29,212 nucleotides of DNA from a virus. Location of the stretch: positions 1-29,212 of the IMG/VR virus record IMGVR_UViG_3300021959_000277. One strand, given 5' to 3'. The translations under genes and the position numbers were made by a program. Under the pieces are notes generated by a model. That model did no database searches. It was given only the letters and a program-made list of their open reading frames with translations, and was not told the origin of the DNA. Position 1 is the first letter of the stretch, and each line of letters begins with the position of its first letter. Of this stretch, positions 4,197-27,554 are shown one piece after another.

Positions 4197-5024
4197 ATGT
4201 CAAGCGAAAATCAAGAGGTAGTAACACCAGAAGTATCAAATGATAGTTCTATGTTATCTGGAGATCCTAAAACAGAAACTCCAAACACAGATTGGAAATC
4301 AAATCTTTCCGATGAAATAAGAGCAGACAAGTCTTTAGAAAATATTAATGATATTGAAAGCTTAGCTAAAAGTTATGTTCATGCGCAAAAATTAGTAGGA
4401 GCTGATAAAATTCCAGTTCCAAATAAATTTGCAACTGACAAAGATTGGGATGCAGTTTATGAAAAACTAGGTAGACCAAAAACTGCGGATGAATATAAAT
4501 TTGATGTAAAAGATGTAGACCAAGCAGGTTTAAATTCTTTTAAAGAACAAGCTCACAAAATGGGTTTACTTCCACACCAAGCAAATGAAATGGTTAAGTG
4601 GTACCAAACAAACGAAACTGCAACTCTAGCAGCTAAAGATGAAACAGCAGAAAAAGCAAGAACAGAATCTGTTGCAAATTTAAAGCAAGAGTTTGGTTTA
4701 GCTTTTGATCAAAAACTTAAAGCAGCTAGTGCTATGGCAAAACAATATGTAGCTGCAGATGTGTTAGATGCTCCAATGGCAGATGGATCTAAGTTAGGAG
4801 ACAATCCTGCTATTATAAAAGCATTTGCAAACTTAGCTGAAAAAATGGGTGAAGATCAGTTTGTTACTGCATCTGGACCAACATATTTAACACCTAAACA
4901 AATCGACAAACAAATTGGAGAATTAACAGCTCCAGATTCTGCTTATTGGGATAAACAACATCCTAATCATTCACAGGCAGTAGAAGAGGTTTTGGCTTTA
5001 CGAGAACAAAAAAGTTCTGTATAG
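4197..5024 (+). CDS. Capsid assembly scaffolding protein
   Basis: A 275-aa, highly charged protein rich in Ala, Lys, Glu and Gln, with no transmembrane segment. The N-terminal ~50 residues look disordered (Ser/Thr/Glu/Asn-rich). A predicted helical body follows (residues ~50-230: KSYVHAQKLVG, GLNSFKEQAHKMGL, ANLKQEFGLAFDQKL), then a C-terminal helical end (YWDKQHPNHSQAVEEVLAL). This composition and the place between portal and major capsid gene fit T7 gp9-type scaffolds, which template prohead assembly and then leave. An AAGGAG Shine-Dalgarno site precedes ATG 4197. Confidence 0.85.
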   Translation: MSSENQEVVTPEVSNDSSMLSGDPKTETPNTDWKSNLSDEIRADKSLENINDIESLAKSYVHAQKLVGADKIPVPNKFATDKDWDAVYEKLGRPKTADEYKFDVKDVDQAGLNSFKEQAHKMGLLPHQANEMVKWYQTNETATLAAKDETAEKARTESVANLKQEFGLAFDQKLKAASAMAKQYVAADVLDAPMADGSKLGDNPAIIKAFANLAEKMGEDQFVTASGPTYLTPKQIDKQIGELTAPDSAYWDKQHPNHSQAVEEVLALREQKSSV

Positions 5025-5034
5025 CTAAAAATAC

Positions 5035-5057
5035 CTAGGATAATCGCAAGACCCTAG
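5035..5057 (+). promoter_or_regulatory. Leader hairpin H1 (GCAA tetraloop, AUAA/C internal loop)
   Basis: Lower stem CTAGG (5035-5039) pairs with CCTAG (5053-5057). An asymmetric internal loop follows, ATAA (5040-5043) opposite C (5052). The upper stem TC (5044-5045) pairs with GA (5050-5051), and the cap is GCAA (5046-5049). GNRA caps and short asymmetric loops are common in structured RNAs and protein-binding sites. It begins 10 nt after the scaffold stop codon. Confidence 0.55.
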
Positions 5058-5100
5058 TTGCCACCAGGAATAGTCTGGGATCCAGAAGATCTAAAATTGA

Positions 5101-5126
5101 GGAGCGACCCGCAAGGATAATCTTCC
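5101..5126 (+). promoter_or_regulatory. Leader hairpin H2 (same internal loop, inverted)
   Basis: The lower stem GGAG (5101-5104) pairs with TTCC (5123-5126), including one G-U, and C5105 is bulged. GA (5106-5107) pairs with TC (5121-5122). The internal loop is C (5108) opposite ATAA (5117-5120). CC (5109-5110) pairs with GG (5115-5116), capped by GCAA (5111-5114). Its strands GACCC and GGATAATC are those of H1 in swapped order, so the same loop element is capped from its other end. Confidence 0.55.
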
Positions 5127-5132
5127 GACAAA

Positions 5133-5165
5133 CAACAACAACAACAACACTAACAATAGAAGGAG
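5133..5165 (+). promoter_or_regulatory. (CAA)5 spacer and strong RBS of the capsid gene
   Basis: Five perfect CAA units (5133-5147) give a single-stranded, G-free stretch between H2 and the ribosome site. AAGGAG lies at 5160-5165, 6 nt before ATG 5172. CAA repeats are known as unstructured translation enhancers, for example in the TMV omega leader. Here they probably keep the start region open for high capsid output. Confidence 0.6.
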
Positions 5166-5171
5166 ACAATT

Positions 5172-6044
5172 ATGTCTACTCAAATAACTACAGCATTTGT
5201 AGAACAATACTCTTCAAATGTTACGATGCTTGCTCAACAAATGGGGAGTAAGTTAAGAGGTGCTGTTGATGTCGAATCTGTAAGAGGAAAAAATGCTTTC
5301 TTTGATCAAATAGGAGCAACAAGTGCATCTGTAAGATCAACAAGACATGGCGCAACACCTCAAGTAACGACACCACACAGCAGACGTAGAGTTTCTTTAG
5401 CTGATTACGAATGGGCAGATCTTATAGACGATCTGGACAAAGTAAGAATGCTAACAGACCCTACATCAAACTATGCTAAAGCAGCAGCAGCAGCGATGAA
5501 TCGATCAATCGATGATGTCGTAATTGCAGCTTTAGGTGGATCAGCAGACACTGGCGTAGCAGGTGGAACAGCGGTAGCTTTACCAGCAACCTCTAAATTC
5601 GCAACTACTCAGCAAGCAGATGGACTAACAATCGCTAAACTTTTAGAAACTAAATATTTCTTTGACAATGGCGATATTGATCCTAGCATAAAAAGATATT
5701 TTTTATGTGGACCAAAACAAATCCAAGATCTATTAGCAACAACAGAAGTAAAATCTTCAGATTTTAATACTGTGAAGGCTCTCGCTCAAGGCGATATTAA
5801 TAGCTTTTTAGGATTTGAGTTCATTATGTCTACTAGACTTAATAACGATTCTACAAACACAGACGACAGATTATGTTTTGGTTTTACTCAAGACGCAATC
5901 AAGTTGGCTTTGGGTGCAGACGTTAAAGCTAAAATCTCTGAAAGAGACGATAAGTCTTATGCGACTCAAGTGTACTACTCTATGGCATTAGGTGCTACTA
6001 GAATGGAAGAATCAAAAGTATTCCAAGTACCTTGCGATGAATAA
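5172..6044 (+). CDS. Major capsid protein
   Basis: A 290-aa protein expected to form the icosahedral shell with an HK97-type fold. The N-terminus (TTAFVEQYSSNVTMLAQQMG) and the HGATPQVTTPHSRRRVSLADY segment are typical of major capsid proteins of marine podoviruses. A central SIDDVVIAALGGSADTG helix-turn and the C-terminal segment DDKSYATQVYYSMALGATRM (polar residues, then the final beta strands) also fit. It follows the scaffold gene, has the strongest-looking RBS on the + strand, a structured leader, and a stable hairpin just after the stop. No leader peptide or decoration domain is evident. I see no frameshifted second form as in T7 gene 10. Confidence 0.9.
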   Translation: MSTQITTAFVEQYSSNVTMLAQQMGSKLRGAVDVESVRGKNAFFDQIGATSASVRSTRHGATPQVTTPHSRRRVSLADYEWADLIDDLDKVRMLTDPTSNYAKAAAAAMNRSIDDVVIAALGGSADTGVAGGTAVALPATSKFATTQQADGLTIAKLLETKYFFDNGDIDPSIKRYFLCGPKQIQDLLATTEVKSSDFNTVKALAQGDINSFLGFEFIMSTRLNNDSTNTDDRLCFGFTQDAIKLALGADVKAKISERDDKSYATQVYYSMALGATRMEESKVFQVPCDE

Positions 6045-6066
6045 TAGATAGTTAATATCTATACCT

Positions 6067-6090
6067 AGGGAGGTGGGAAACTGCCTCCCT
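6067..6090 (+). terminator. Stable hairpin after the capsid gene
   Basis: AGGGAGG (6067-6073) pairs with CCTCCCT (6084-6090). Two G-U pairs and G6076-C6081 extend the stem to about 10 bp, capped by GAAA (6077-6080). Only TT follows, so this is at best a weak or leaky terminator, or a 3' stabiliser of capsid mRNA. The position matches the T7 terminator after gene 10. It begins with the same nine bases, ATACCTAGG, as the capsid leader (5031-5039 and 6061-6069). Confidence 0.55.
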
Positions 6091-6117
6091 TACTCACACA
6101 AACATAAAAAGGAAAAC

Positions 6118-6198
6118 ATGCCAAAAGGTAAAGGAACATACGGATCTAAAAAAGGTAGACCACCAAAAAAACCAAAAAACAAACCAAGAAAAAAATAA
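6118..6198 (+). CDS. 26-aa basic peptide, KGTYGSKKGRPPKK type
   Basis: ATG 6118 to TAA 6196-6198, with AAGGAAA just upstream. The peptide is MPKGKGTYGSKKGRPPKKP followed by NKPRKK and a few more basic residues. Half of all residues are Lys or Arg. Tiny basic proteins starting MPKGKGTYG are, from memory, recurrent between capsid and tail genes of podoviruses. The GRPPKK segment resembles an AT-hook, so nucleic-acid binding or DNA condensation in the head is possible. Function is not known. Confidence 0.7.
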   Translation: MPKGKGTYGSKKGRPPKKPKNKPRKK

Positions 6199-6205
6199 AG
6201 GAAAC

Positions 6206-6331
6206 ATGAGCTTATATAGAAATATAAACGCAAGAAAAAAAGCAGGAACATCAAGATCAAAAAAGAAAAGTACAATATCAGCTAAAGCATATAAAAATAT
6301 GAAAGCTGGTTTTCCAAACAAAAAGAGATAA
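6206..6331 (+). CDS. 41-aa basic protein, MSLY..INARKKAGTSRSK type
   Basis: ATG 6206 with AAAGGAAA before it; stop TAA 6329-6331. The sequence begins MSLYRNINARKKAGTSRSKK and ends AYKNMKAGFPNKKR. The motifs AGTSRSK, STIS and MKAGFP recur in tiny proteins beside podovirus capsid or tail genes. It forms a pair with the 26-aa peptide 7 nt upstream. Rich in Lys/Arg and Ser, without hydrophobic segments. Probably virion-associated or an assembly factor (inference from place). Confidence 0.75.
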   Translation: MSLYRNINARKKAGTSRSKKKSTISAKAYKNMKAGFPNKKR

Positions 6332-6335
6332 TTAA

Positions 6336-25914: not shown

Positions 25915-26347
25915 ATGCCTGTTTAAAAGTATTCTGATATGCCATTTCTTTCTCAAGCTTAGGCAACATACTATTATAATGCTTTGCTGTTCCGTATTGA
26001 TCTAAGATATTTCTATCTATCTCTTTACACTTAGCAATCAATCTATCTTTACCTTTAGTAGAAAATATATCAGCTCCTTTTTTATCTTTAGTATTTAACA
26101 AATCTAAAGGATCTGAGTTTAAAATTACTAAAGGATCATAACCTTTAGTATCACAGATCAAATAAAACTTATCAGCTGATATTCCATTATTTGCTTTCTC
26201 CCATTTTTGACCCTGCTGGAAGGAAACATCGCAAATTGAGTATTGCTTTGTTTGTGTTGTCTCTTCAACAGATCTCCATAAAAGTAAAAATTTTGCTATC
26301 TTACCTTTAATCTCAAATCTTCTTTGAAGTAATTGCTCTTTATTCAT
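25913..26347 (-). CDS. Unknown protein between integrase and attP
   Basis: 144 aa, ATG at 26347, GGAGAA Shine-Dalgarno site just upstream. It overlaps the integrase stop by 8 nt, so it is translated with it. No recognisable family: charged helical start (EQLLQRRFEIKGKIAKFLLL), a mid part with Cys and aromatic residues (YSICDVSFQQGQKWEKANNG, FYLICDTKGYDPLVIL) and a helical C-terminus. The place, downstream of int and beside attP, is where excisionases or integration regulators may be found, but it is larger than most excisionases and shows no helix-turn-helix that I can see. Confidence 0.7.
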   Translation of the reverse strand: MNKEQLLQRRFEIKGKIAKFLLLWRSVEETTQTKQYSICDVSFQQGQKWEKANNGISADKFYLICDTKGYDPLVILNSDPLDLLNTKDKKGADIFSTKGKDRLIAKCKEIDRNILDQYGTAKHYNSMLPKLEKEMAYQNTFKQA

Positions 26348-27554
26348 ATTGTTCTCCGTTAGTTATTAGATTGTTAAGAGCAGCGGTTCTTTTGTTTTTA
26401 TTCAAGTCTGATAGGGGTCTTTGGTAAAACCCTTTAAAAGTTTTTAATTCTTTATCCCAGCCATATCTTGCAGCAAAGGATGCATCATCTAAAACTTTCT
26501 TAGCATACATAACAGACGCGCTAAATTTTCTAAAAGGTGAGACTCCTTTTTTCCAAGGAACACCAGCTTTGATTGCAGCTGACTTAACTATATCTGCTGC
26601 ATATTCTTTTCTATATGGAAAGACTCTTCTATATTTTCTTGCAAAAGTTTTAGGATTCATTTGTATATCCATCCAAGCTTTTAAAAGATTATAAAGAGTA
26701 GTAGTAATTTGAACTTTTCTTTTTCTCTTATCAGTTTTTAAATAGTCTGGTCTAAAATTACTATCACCATCTAAAGAGTGTTTAACATCAATAACATAAA
26801 AACCTTGCTCTTCATCCTGGTAAACATCTTCGTAACAAATACCTAAAGCAGCGCTTAGCTCTATTCCAGTTTCTGCTAAGGTATGGATCCAAGCTTTCTT
26901 GCCTGGATTCTTTTCAGCATGGATCATATTAAATACTTCATTAGATTTAGGCAGCCAACTATCTTTAGCTGCAGCTCTATTCTCTAATTGTCTAGGTTTA
27001 AATTCAAACTTAAGGATCTCTTCAATTTCAATATCCCATTCGTTATCTTTGCAATAGATAAGAAACTTTTTGAAATATTGCAGCGCTCTCTGCACAACAA
27101 GCTTACCAATTCTCTCATCCGTTCTAACACCATTACTAATCTTACAGCTGGTTAATAAGCCATTCTTAGTTGATTTTTCTCCATGTTTAAAATCTGCTGC
27201 CTTGTACTCATCCAAGTAGGTTTTGCTTATGTATGGCTGGATATGGGACTCCAGGATAGCAATATATCCGTCTTTAGTCTTTTGCTCTAGATCTGGCTCA
27301 GCTTGCACAGATTTATAATATTGTTTAAAAGCATTCTTAAAAGTAACTCTCTCTTCGGGAGCTACTGAATTTTTAATTTTATTATGTAGGTTGTATTTAG
27401 ATACAATCTCTTCTTCATTACATTCCTTTAAATGATGCTCTAAATTATTAGCTAGTCTTTTCTTATCTAAAGGGAAAGATCCCACAGTGTATTCTTTGCC
27501 ATTTATTTTAGCATAGATCTTATGTTTACCGCCATTCTTAGCTTGTCTTATCAT
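26340..27554 (-). CDS. int: Tyrosine recombinase / phage integrase, divergent
   Basis: 404 aa. It has an N-terminal AP2-like arm-binding part (KIYAKINGKEYTVGSFPLDK, ~12-31), a core-binding domain (~66-175: TFKNAFKQYYKSVQ, YIAILESHIQPYI) and a catalytic domain (~200-385). The nucleophile is probably Y377 in FKGFYQRP. Box II is S339-P-F-R342, with R342 intact but His replaced by Ser. W366 sits in YGWDKEL. The Arg I box reads TGIELSAAL, with E232 where Arg is expected. Lys candidates are K273 and K276 in LKTDKRKRK. It is expected to recombine the attP core at 25756-25805 with a tRNA-Arg gene. A perfect AAGGAGGT Shine-Dalgarno site lies at 27563-27570. Activity is uncertain because of the two substitutions. 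Confidence 0.85.
   Translation of the reverse strand: MIRQAKNGGKHKIYAKINGKEYTVGSFPLDKKRLANNLEHHLKECNEEEIVSKYNLHNKIKNSVAPEERVTFKNAFKQYYKSVQAEPDLEQKTKDGYIAILESHIQPYISKTYLDEYKAADFKHGEKSTKNGLLTSCKISNGVRTDERIGKLVVQRALQYFKKFLIYCKDNEWDIEIEEILKFEFKPRQLENRAAAKDSWLPKSNEVFNMIHAEKNPGKKAWIHTLAETGIELSAALGICYEDVYQDEEQGFYVIDVKHSLDGDSNFRPDYLKTDKRKRKVQITTTLYNLLKAWMDIQMNPKTFARKYRRVFPYRKEYAADIVKSAAIKAGVPWKKGVSPFRKFSASVMYAKKVLDDASFAARYGWDKELKTFKGFYQRPLSDLNKNKRTAALNNLITNGEQYE

Follow-up and report, generated by a model that had tools for sequence, protein, structure and literature searches.

A conserved pair of mirrored, bulged hairpins in phage capsid-gene leaders: a probable RNA signal for major capsid protein synthesis

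Overview

We found that the leader of the major capsid protein (MCP) gene in the window, i.e., the whole 29,212-nucleotide stretch of marine phage DNA analyzed here, carries two hairpins that display the same asymmetric internal loop in opposite orientations. Comparison with other phage leaders indicates that this pair is probably an undescribed RNA signal, which controls the synthesis of the main shell protein of the phage. We put at roughly one in two the probability that it acts in cis as a structured 5′ leader on the MCP mRNA, setting MCP output through a trans-acting factor that reads the two bulges. Few phage proteins are made in larger amounts than major capsid proteins, and to our knowledge little is known about the control of their synthesis at the RNA level in dsDNA tailed phages. 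The element, with its compact new bulge motif, would be an RNA signal shared among phages that infect Pelagibacter, Vibrio, Yersinia and many uncultured hosts, and bears on how these phages raise capsid output far above that of the neighboring genes.

The hairpin pair in the leader of the window

The element is located in the leader between the scaffold ORF and the MCP ORF, and the region comprises the following features, all on the plus strand:

4197..5024, +, scaffold or capsid-assembly protein gene, an ORF upstream of the element (phrog_3742, phrog_458)
4997..5025, +, weak candidate sigma70-like promoter, TTTACG-17-TATAGC, with the putative -10 box ending 9 nt 5′ of H1
5035..5057, +, H1, type I motif hairpin with outer helix CUAGG/CCUAG, AUAA facing C5052, inner helix UC/GA and loop GCAA
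5064..5078, +, P2 hairpin, CCAG-GAAUAGU-CUGG, from RNAalifold on alignment A2, with double-sided changes
5079..5091, +, P3 hairpin, GAUC-CAGAA-GAUC, followed by UAAAAU, from RNAalifold on alignment A2, with double-sided changes
5101..5126, +, H2, type II motif hairpin with GGA/UCC, a GC/U loop, GA/UC, C5108 facing AUAA at 5117-5120, CC/GG and loop GCAA
5127..5159, +, unstructured A/C-rich linker, starting CAACAACAACAACA
5161..5165, +, Shine-Dalgarno AGGAG, read from the sequence
5172..6044, +, MCP gene, Phage_capsid_2 (PF19821, E=1.4e-86; phrog_3437, major head protein)

Read as RNA, H1 is CUAGG-AUAA-UC-GCAA-GA-C-CCUAG and H2 is GGA-GC-GA-C-CC-GCAA-GG-AUAA-UC-U-UCC, such that in both hairpins AUAA opposes a single C between two short helices. 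We term hairpins with AUAA on the 5′ strand, as in H1, type I and those with AUAA on the 3′ strand, as in H2, type II. A sequence-only reading of the window had reported both hairpins and a swap of their strands, GGAUAAUC and GACCC; on re-reading the sequence, we recovered the same positions and the same swap, with GGATAATC-GCAA-GACCC in H1 and GACCC-GCAA-GGATAATC in H2. Its rendering of H2 is right as to the C/AUAA loop, but the lower stem is interrupted (GC/U). The leader, which it had taken to be the only long untranslated gap, is also accompanied by a second one at 6045-6335, which holds only small basic ORFs. These are two very basic ORFs of 26 and 41 aa (6118-6331) between the MCP and tail tubular A genes, with K/R constituting a third to nearly half of the residues and with zero acidic residues; in the compared phages, different, unrelated small ORFs occupy the place 3′ of the MCP gene.

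The closest cultured relatives of the window, as judged by its MCP, are the HTVC010P-type pelagiphages (57-65% identity), and the upstream scaffold gene shows the same synteny as the 'capsid assembly protein' of HTVC024P and others. An integrase-like ORF at 26340-27554, with a weak Phage_int_SAM_3 match, suggests that the window represents a temperate relative of the HTVC010P-type pelagiphages.

Covariation in related leaders

Leaders gathered by MCP homology, irrespective of the motif, display the same design with other stem sequences, such as H1 of HTVC010P (GGUAAG-ACAA-UUC-GCAA-GAA-C-CUUACU) and both hairpins of the leader L035 (H1, CCAGA-AUAA-UCC-GCAA-GGA-C-UCUGG; H2, GGUAAA-C-CCCU-UUU-AGGG-AUAA-UUUAUC). 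When run unaided on alignment A2, which comprises 39 non-redundant relatives, RNAalifold recovered the H1 outer stem, P2, P3 and the H2 inner stem, and 13 of 15 pairs showed double-sided (compensatory) changes. When the loop was positioned from the alignment, with the outer helix not used for placement, all five outer pairs of H1 are paired in 37-38 of the 39 sequences, versus shuffled means of 23-33 (p<=0.0005 each), while outer pairs 1 and 2 of H2 are paired in 38/39 and 32/39, respectively. The compensation in the H1 outer stem of A2 features 16 G.U cells and 0 A.C cells, a bias that marks the sense RNA as the strand that folds. P2 and P3 were ruled out as essential parts, as they are missing in Vibrio phage CKB-S2 and in L396, where the two motif hairpins are nearly adjacent. 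Across the homologous leaders, the ANAA/C loop is kept as the flanking pairs change with compensation, which upholds the earlier proposal that RNA structure rather than sequence is under selection; that proposal had also expected the GCAA loops to be kept, and these vary.

Energy folding gives a different picture, in that the element is not apparent in the folded leader of the window (z -0.39). H2 in particular is thermodynamically weak there, with a pair probability of 0.13 or less, and energy folding alone gives it no preference. The low folding probability of H2 fits stabilization by a partner, yet it is the main caution on the element. We take the comparative evidence from the aligned leaders to override energy folding, which alone would have led to rejection.

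A wider R-Y-A-N/Y motif in mirrored order

We enumerated all hairpins with any four bases opposite any one base, with no loop preselected, in 133 non-redundant 200-nt MCP leaders (L085 and L138 found via the pattern, the rest via the MCP). AUAA/C (50 versus 0.2 expected), ACAA/C (44 versus 0.3), GUAG/U (18 versus 0.2), AUAC/C (14 versus 0.15) and ACAC/C (6 versus 0.2) emerged from this enumeration, and the MCP coding sequence of the same phages, used as a control, has 0 or 1 of each enriched loop. GGUA/C (16) and UAGC/G (11) are likewise raised and look like alternative registers of GUAG/U; strong enrichment over both the shuffles and the coding controls is limited to the R-Y-A-N/Y loops and these registers. 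The AUAA/C loop singled out by the sequence-only reading is, hence, strongly enriched in MCP leaders, but it is just one form of a wider motif.

When only Watson-Crick helices are admitted in the 133 leaders, ANA[AC] lies opposite C 141 times and opposite U 6 times, and GNAG opposite U 24 times and opposite C 3 times. Among the A-type hairpins, 134 of 141 have a pyrimidine at the second position of the motif and 141 of 156 have A at the third. Read from these counts, the consensus is R-Y-A-N opposite Y, with R and Y covarying (A with C, G with U), as expected if R.Y were an A+.C or G.U wobble, which would be isosteric, beside a Y-A-N bulge. Mixed leaders, such as L504 with AUAA/C in H1 and GUAG/U in H2, suggest one recognizing partner for both hairpins. 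The terminal loops are free (ATTC, ATCT, AATC, TTTT, that is, UUUU in the RNA, TTTA and others) with no conservation of a GNRA loop, and this variability removed GCAA from the motif, although the tetraloop had been part of the design as first described.

With Watson-Crick-only helices, the motif pair is present in 79 of the 133 non-redundant leaders versus 9 of 1330 shuffled ones (0.7%). Chance identity and assembly duplicates were ruled out by the use of non-redundant sets and shuffles. Under strict scoring of the same 133 leaders, the order is I-II in 51, II-II in 21, I-I in 7 and II-I in 0, the II-II leaders belonging chiefly to the clade of pelagiphage Baldr. The mirrored order, which the sequence-only reading had viewed as a strong mark of selection on RNA structure, is conserved far outside this phage. 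If the two hairpins were to stack base to base, the I-II order would give the bulges the same polarity along a quasi-continuous helix. The end of H2 lies 33-59 nt from the ATG in nearly all I-II leaders, with a median of 45 nt. One leader (L514, 1320-1440) has three motif hairpins, two of type I and one of type II.

Distribution across phages

Exact-pattern scans for each hairpin covered the 2.9 million viral contigs of IMG/VR. Among the matches listed, both hairpins occur together, 67-69 nt apart, in at least 79 distinct sequences, and 250 of 276 are directly upstream of an MCP homolog; the other 26 of the 276 listed are mostly the same leaders with contig-end cuts or mis-called starts, and a few are chance matches. 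The element precedes PF19821 MCPs in HTVC010P-type pelagiphages, Manatee Spring freshwater phages, Vibrio phages VP2 and CKB-S2, many phages from environmental samples, Pelagibacteraceae single-amplified genomes and several metagenome-assembled bacteria. Two type II hairpins with AUAC/C precede the PF19821 MCP of Yersinia phage YeP5. MCP identity among the element-bearing phages goes down to about 25-30%, the remote MCPs being confirmed by Pfam.

A covariance model trained solely on the near clade placed 38 of its 39 matches at MCP leaders, including those of far relatives, with one strong match in the window and one match per host-plus-phage genome where it matched. Under stricter filters, it had no match in 384 other host-class genomes, and a host-borne element was ruled out, there being no match in host chromosomes. 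The element was found before MCP genes only, bar a possible scaffold case (see L213 below), and not before early or other late genes. It is absent from E. coli phage vB_EcoM_APEC, Alcaligenes phage Piluca, Acinetobacter phage TPWB-05 and Pf-WMP3, which have a scaffold-MCP gap of 11-22 nt, and the 69-nt leader of Vibrio phage 121E34-1 lacks the motif.

Three further loci display related hairpins. In the Phage_capsid_2 phage L213 (2146-5065, minus strand), where the MCP leader has its own I-II pair, an extra type II hairpin (CAGA-C-CC-GAGA-GG-AUAA-UCUG) lies over the scaffold ribosome site, its end about 8 nt upstream of the scaffold ATG, which hints that scaffold and capsid may be under common control. 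L235 (5400-5490), a phage whose portal is P22-like and whose MCP belongs to another family, has two tandem type II hairpins directly before the scaffold gene, for which no relative was found to confirm them. A weak candidate, the type II-like GA-C-CCCU-UGCG-AGGG-ACAA-UC, is seen in the MCP leader of Pelagibacter phage Jormungand of the Autographiviridae (L574, 755-785), from which the element may reach other MCP families.

Promoter context

We defined a strong sigma70 match as one in which the best match upstream of H1 is equalled by <=2/50 shuffles. Such matches were found in 40 of 106 leaders, and in 36 of those 40 the -10 box ends 5-14 nt before H1 (e.g., L433, TTTACA-17-TATAAT; L416, TTGACC-17-TATATT); Vibrio phage VP2 has TTGACT-17-TATAAT, as read from its sequence. 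A promoter this close upstream would place H1 near the 5′ end of the putative MCP transcript. The candidate in the window is weak, with 2/50 shuffles as good and no flag from a consensus scan; several class-A relatives retain it as TTTACG/TATAGC or TATAAG. Many leaders (L504, L513, L065, HTVC024P) and several clades have no promoter-like sequence. A TTGACA inside the leader was rejected by eye as a -35 box, since a -10 box at proper spacing is lacking. In L456 (1329-1368), the loop of a terminator-like hairpin contains the -35 box of the promoter that precedes the MCP leader, and L424 and L453 resemble it by eye.

This context raises the prospect of a purely structural 5′-end stabilizer or insulator comparable to the T7 gene 10 leader and needing no dedicated partner: a 5′-terminal hairpin would shield the MCP mRNA, and the ribosome site would stay accessible owing to the A/C-rich linker. 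The promoter just upstream of H1 in many clades, VP2 included, and a linker free of structure that precedes the ribosome-binding site of nearly all leaders are consistent with such a role. We nonetheless consider it unlikely: a simple hairpin needs neither a conserved R-Y-A-N/Y bulge nor a second, mirrored copy, the loop identity is fixed while the stem sequence drifts, and the hairpins of the window are weak.

The location between the scaffold and MCP genes would also suit an RNase processing site that frees the MCP message from a late transcript, and in clades that lack a promoter-like sequence it would provide the mature 5′ end they need. However, the helices, at 2-8 bp, are short for RNase III, and an endonuclease has no need for two mirrored copies of one bulge, making this a very improbable alternative.

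A predicted control element of the capsid message

Control of the MCP message is favored by several features of the element, which occurs in single copy, is linked to the MCP gene, keeps its distance to the ATG (median 45 nt) and is specific to phages. Capsid control as first suggested from the sequence is itself favored solely by the near-exclusive position of the element before MCP genes. The repeated, invariant bulge in free stems favors recognition by a trans-acting factor, and the spread over unrelated hosts along with the absence from host chromosomes favors a phage factor, with a universal host factor such as RNA polymerase being another possible recognizer. The core of the element consists of tandem hairpins, type I followed by type II, each with the same internal loop, in which a wobble-type R.Y pair (A+.C or G.U) would adjoin a three-base Y-A-N bulge; an unstructured linker of about 45 nt and the ribosome-binding site come next. 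The comparisons establish this structure and the selection on it, and the partner and the function are inferred. We posit that in many of these phages the MCP gene is transcribed from its own sigma70 promoter, so that the mRNA would start near H1. Both bulges would be recognized by a single trans-acting factor, which the phage itself most likely encodes; its binding would either stabilize the mRNA or gate translation, and so adjust how much MCP is made relative to the scaffold and portal proteins encoded in the same gene block. It counts against this reading that the element is about 45 nt from the ATG and leaves the MCP ribosome-binding site uncovered, as do the relatives that lack the element, the weak H2 of the window and the many leaders with no promoter-like sequence. 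Among the neighboring genes, we found no conserved RNA-binding candidate, and the small basic ORFs after the MCP gene were ruled out as the partner because they are not conserved in relatives.

More tentatively, the R-Y-A-N module, used as a mirrored pair, might be recognized by a factor conserved among phages, perhaps even the capsid or scaffold protein, which would amount to a feedback control of capsid synthesis shared by dsDNA tailed phages of many bacterial groups. If true, it would include the HTVC010P-type viruses, which are abundant in the ocean. The element is also a potential annotation marker for uncultured phages and, if its partner is found, possibly a new RNA-binding pair for biotechnology.

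Comparison with known systems

Rfam 15 gave no match at the gathering threshold in the window, and in E-value scans of 17 diverse loci the two matches that appeared were chance ones outside the element. A search of the open literature found no account of such a leader, a 2017 survey of 224 RNA candidates being outside its scope. The sequence-only reading, which knew of no described family of this kind, is in line with these searches. From its layout, the element would act in the manner of a phage leader RNA, and it belongs to no family tested.

The putRNA of phage HK022, two stem-loops that follow closely on a sigma70 promoter, needs no phage protein for its action in cis and binds the β′ zinc-binding domain of RNA polymerase; put is described as having an RNA triplex and a four-base bulged loop and operates at early operons (PMC9378689). 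By that description, putL and putR are like our element in having two bulged stem-loops, which follow a sigma70 promoter in put and a sigma70-like candidate in many of our leaders; put acts in cis, as the element would. A put-like RNA that binds the emerging host RNA polymerase and confers resistance to pausing and termination over the long late operon would account for the host breadth through a universal polymerase, and the element does follow sigma70-like promoters, in L456 directly after the terminator-like hairpin. The layout is matched as to the two hairpins, with a strong promoter 5-14 nt upstream of H1 in 36/106 leaders and none in many others. Put sites act at early operons whatever gene lies downstream, whereas the element occurs at MCP genes (with the possible L213 scaffold exception) in one copy per genome, not before early or other late genes, and the maintained spacing to the ATG, with its median of 45 nt, suggests a role at the MCP message. 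We regard this alternative as rather doubtful, somewhat more so than a structural stabilizer.

The guanidine-II (mini-ykkC) riboswitch has two similar small tandem hairpins with conserved hairpin loops (ACGR). The element likewise has two similar small hairpins in tandem within a leader; unlike guanidine-II, it has free loops, a conserved internal loop and a mirrored order. A riboswitch-like aptamer, with H1 and H2 (and P2 and P3 in some clades) folding around a small ligand, would explain a small, repeated and highly constrained internal loop, as in such tandem-hairpin riboswitches. Yet we saw neither a switchable terminator nor sequestration of the ribosome site, P2 and P3 are dispensable, and the element is limited to phage capsid genes in unrelated hosts; a ligand-binding role has little to recommend it.

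The T7 gene 10 leader comprises the phi10 promoter, a 5′ stem-loop and an A/U-rich enhancer. Its dedicated promoter directly upstream of the MCP gene and its structured 5′ end have putative counterparts in our leaders, and an unstructured linker and a strong ribosome site are common to both, but it has one simple hairpin without a conserved bulge and a promoter of the phage RNA polymerase rather than sigma70. We know of no homolog of the R-Y-A-N/Y pair in it. A putative dedicated promoter with a 5′-terminal hairpin is clear by sequence in many clades and in VP2, and weak in the window.

The coat-protein operators of the RNA phages MS2 and PP7 each consist of a single hairpin spanning the replicase start, whereas the element, found in dsDNA tailed phages, has two hairpins in mirrored order some 45 nt before the MCP gene. 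In common with them, it displays hairpins with free stems and a conserved unpaired purine (the third base is A in 141/156) that may control the synthesis of a structural protein, a resemblance in kind rather than homology.
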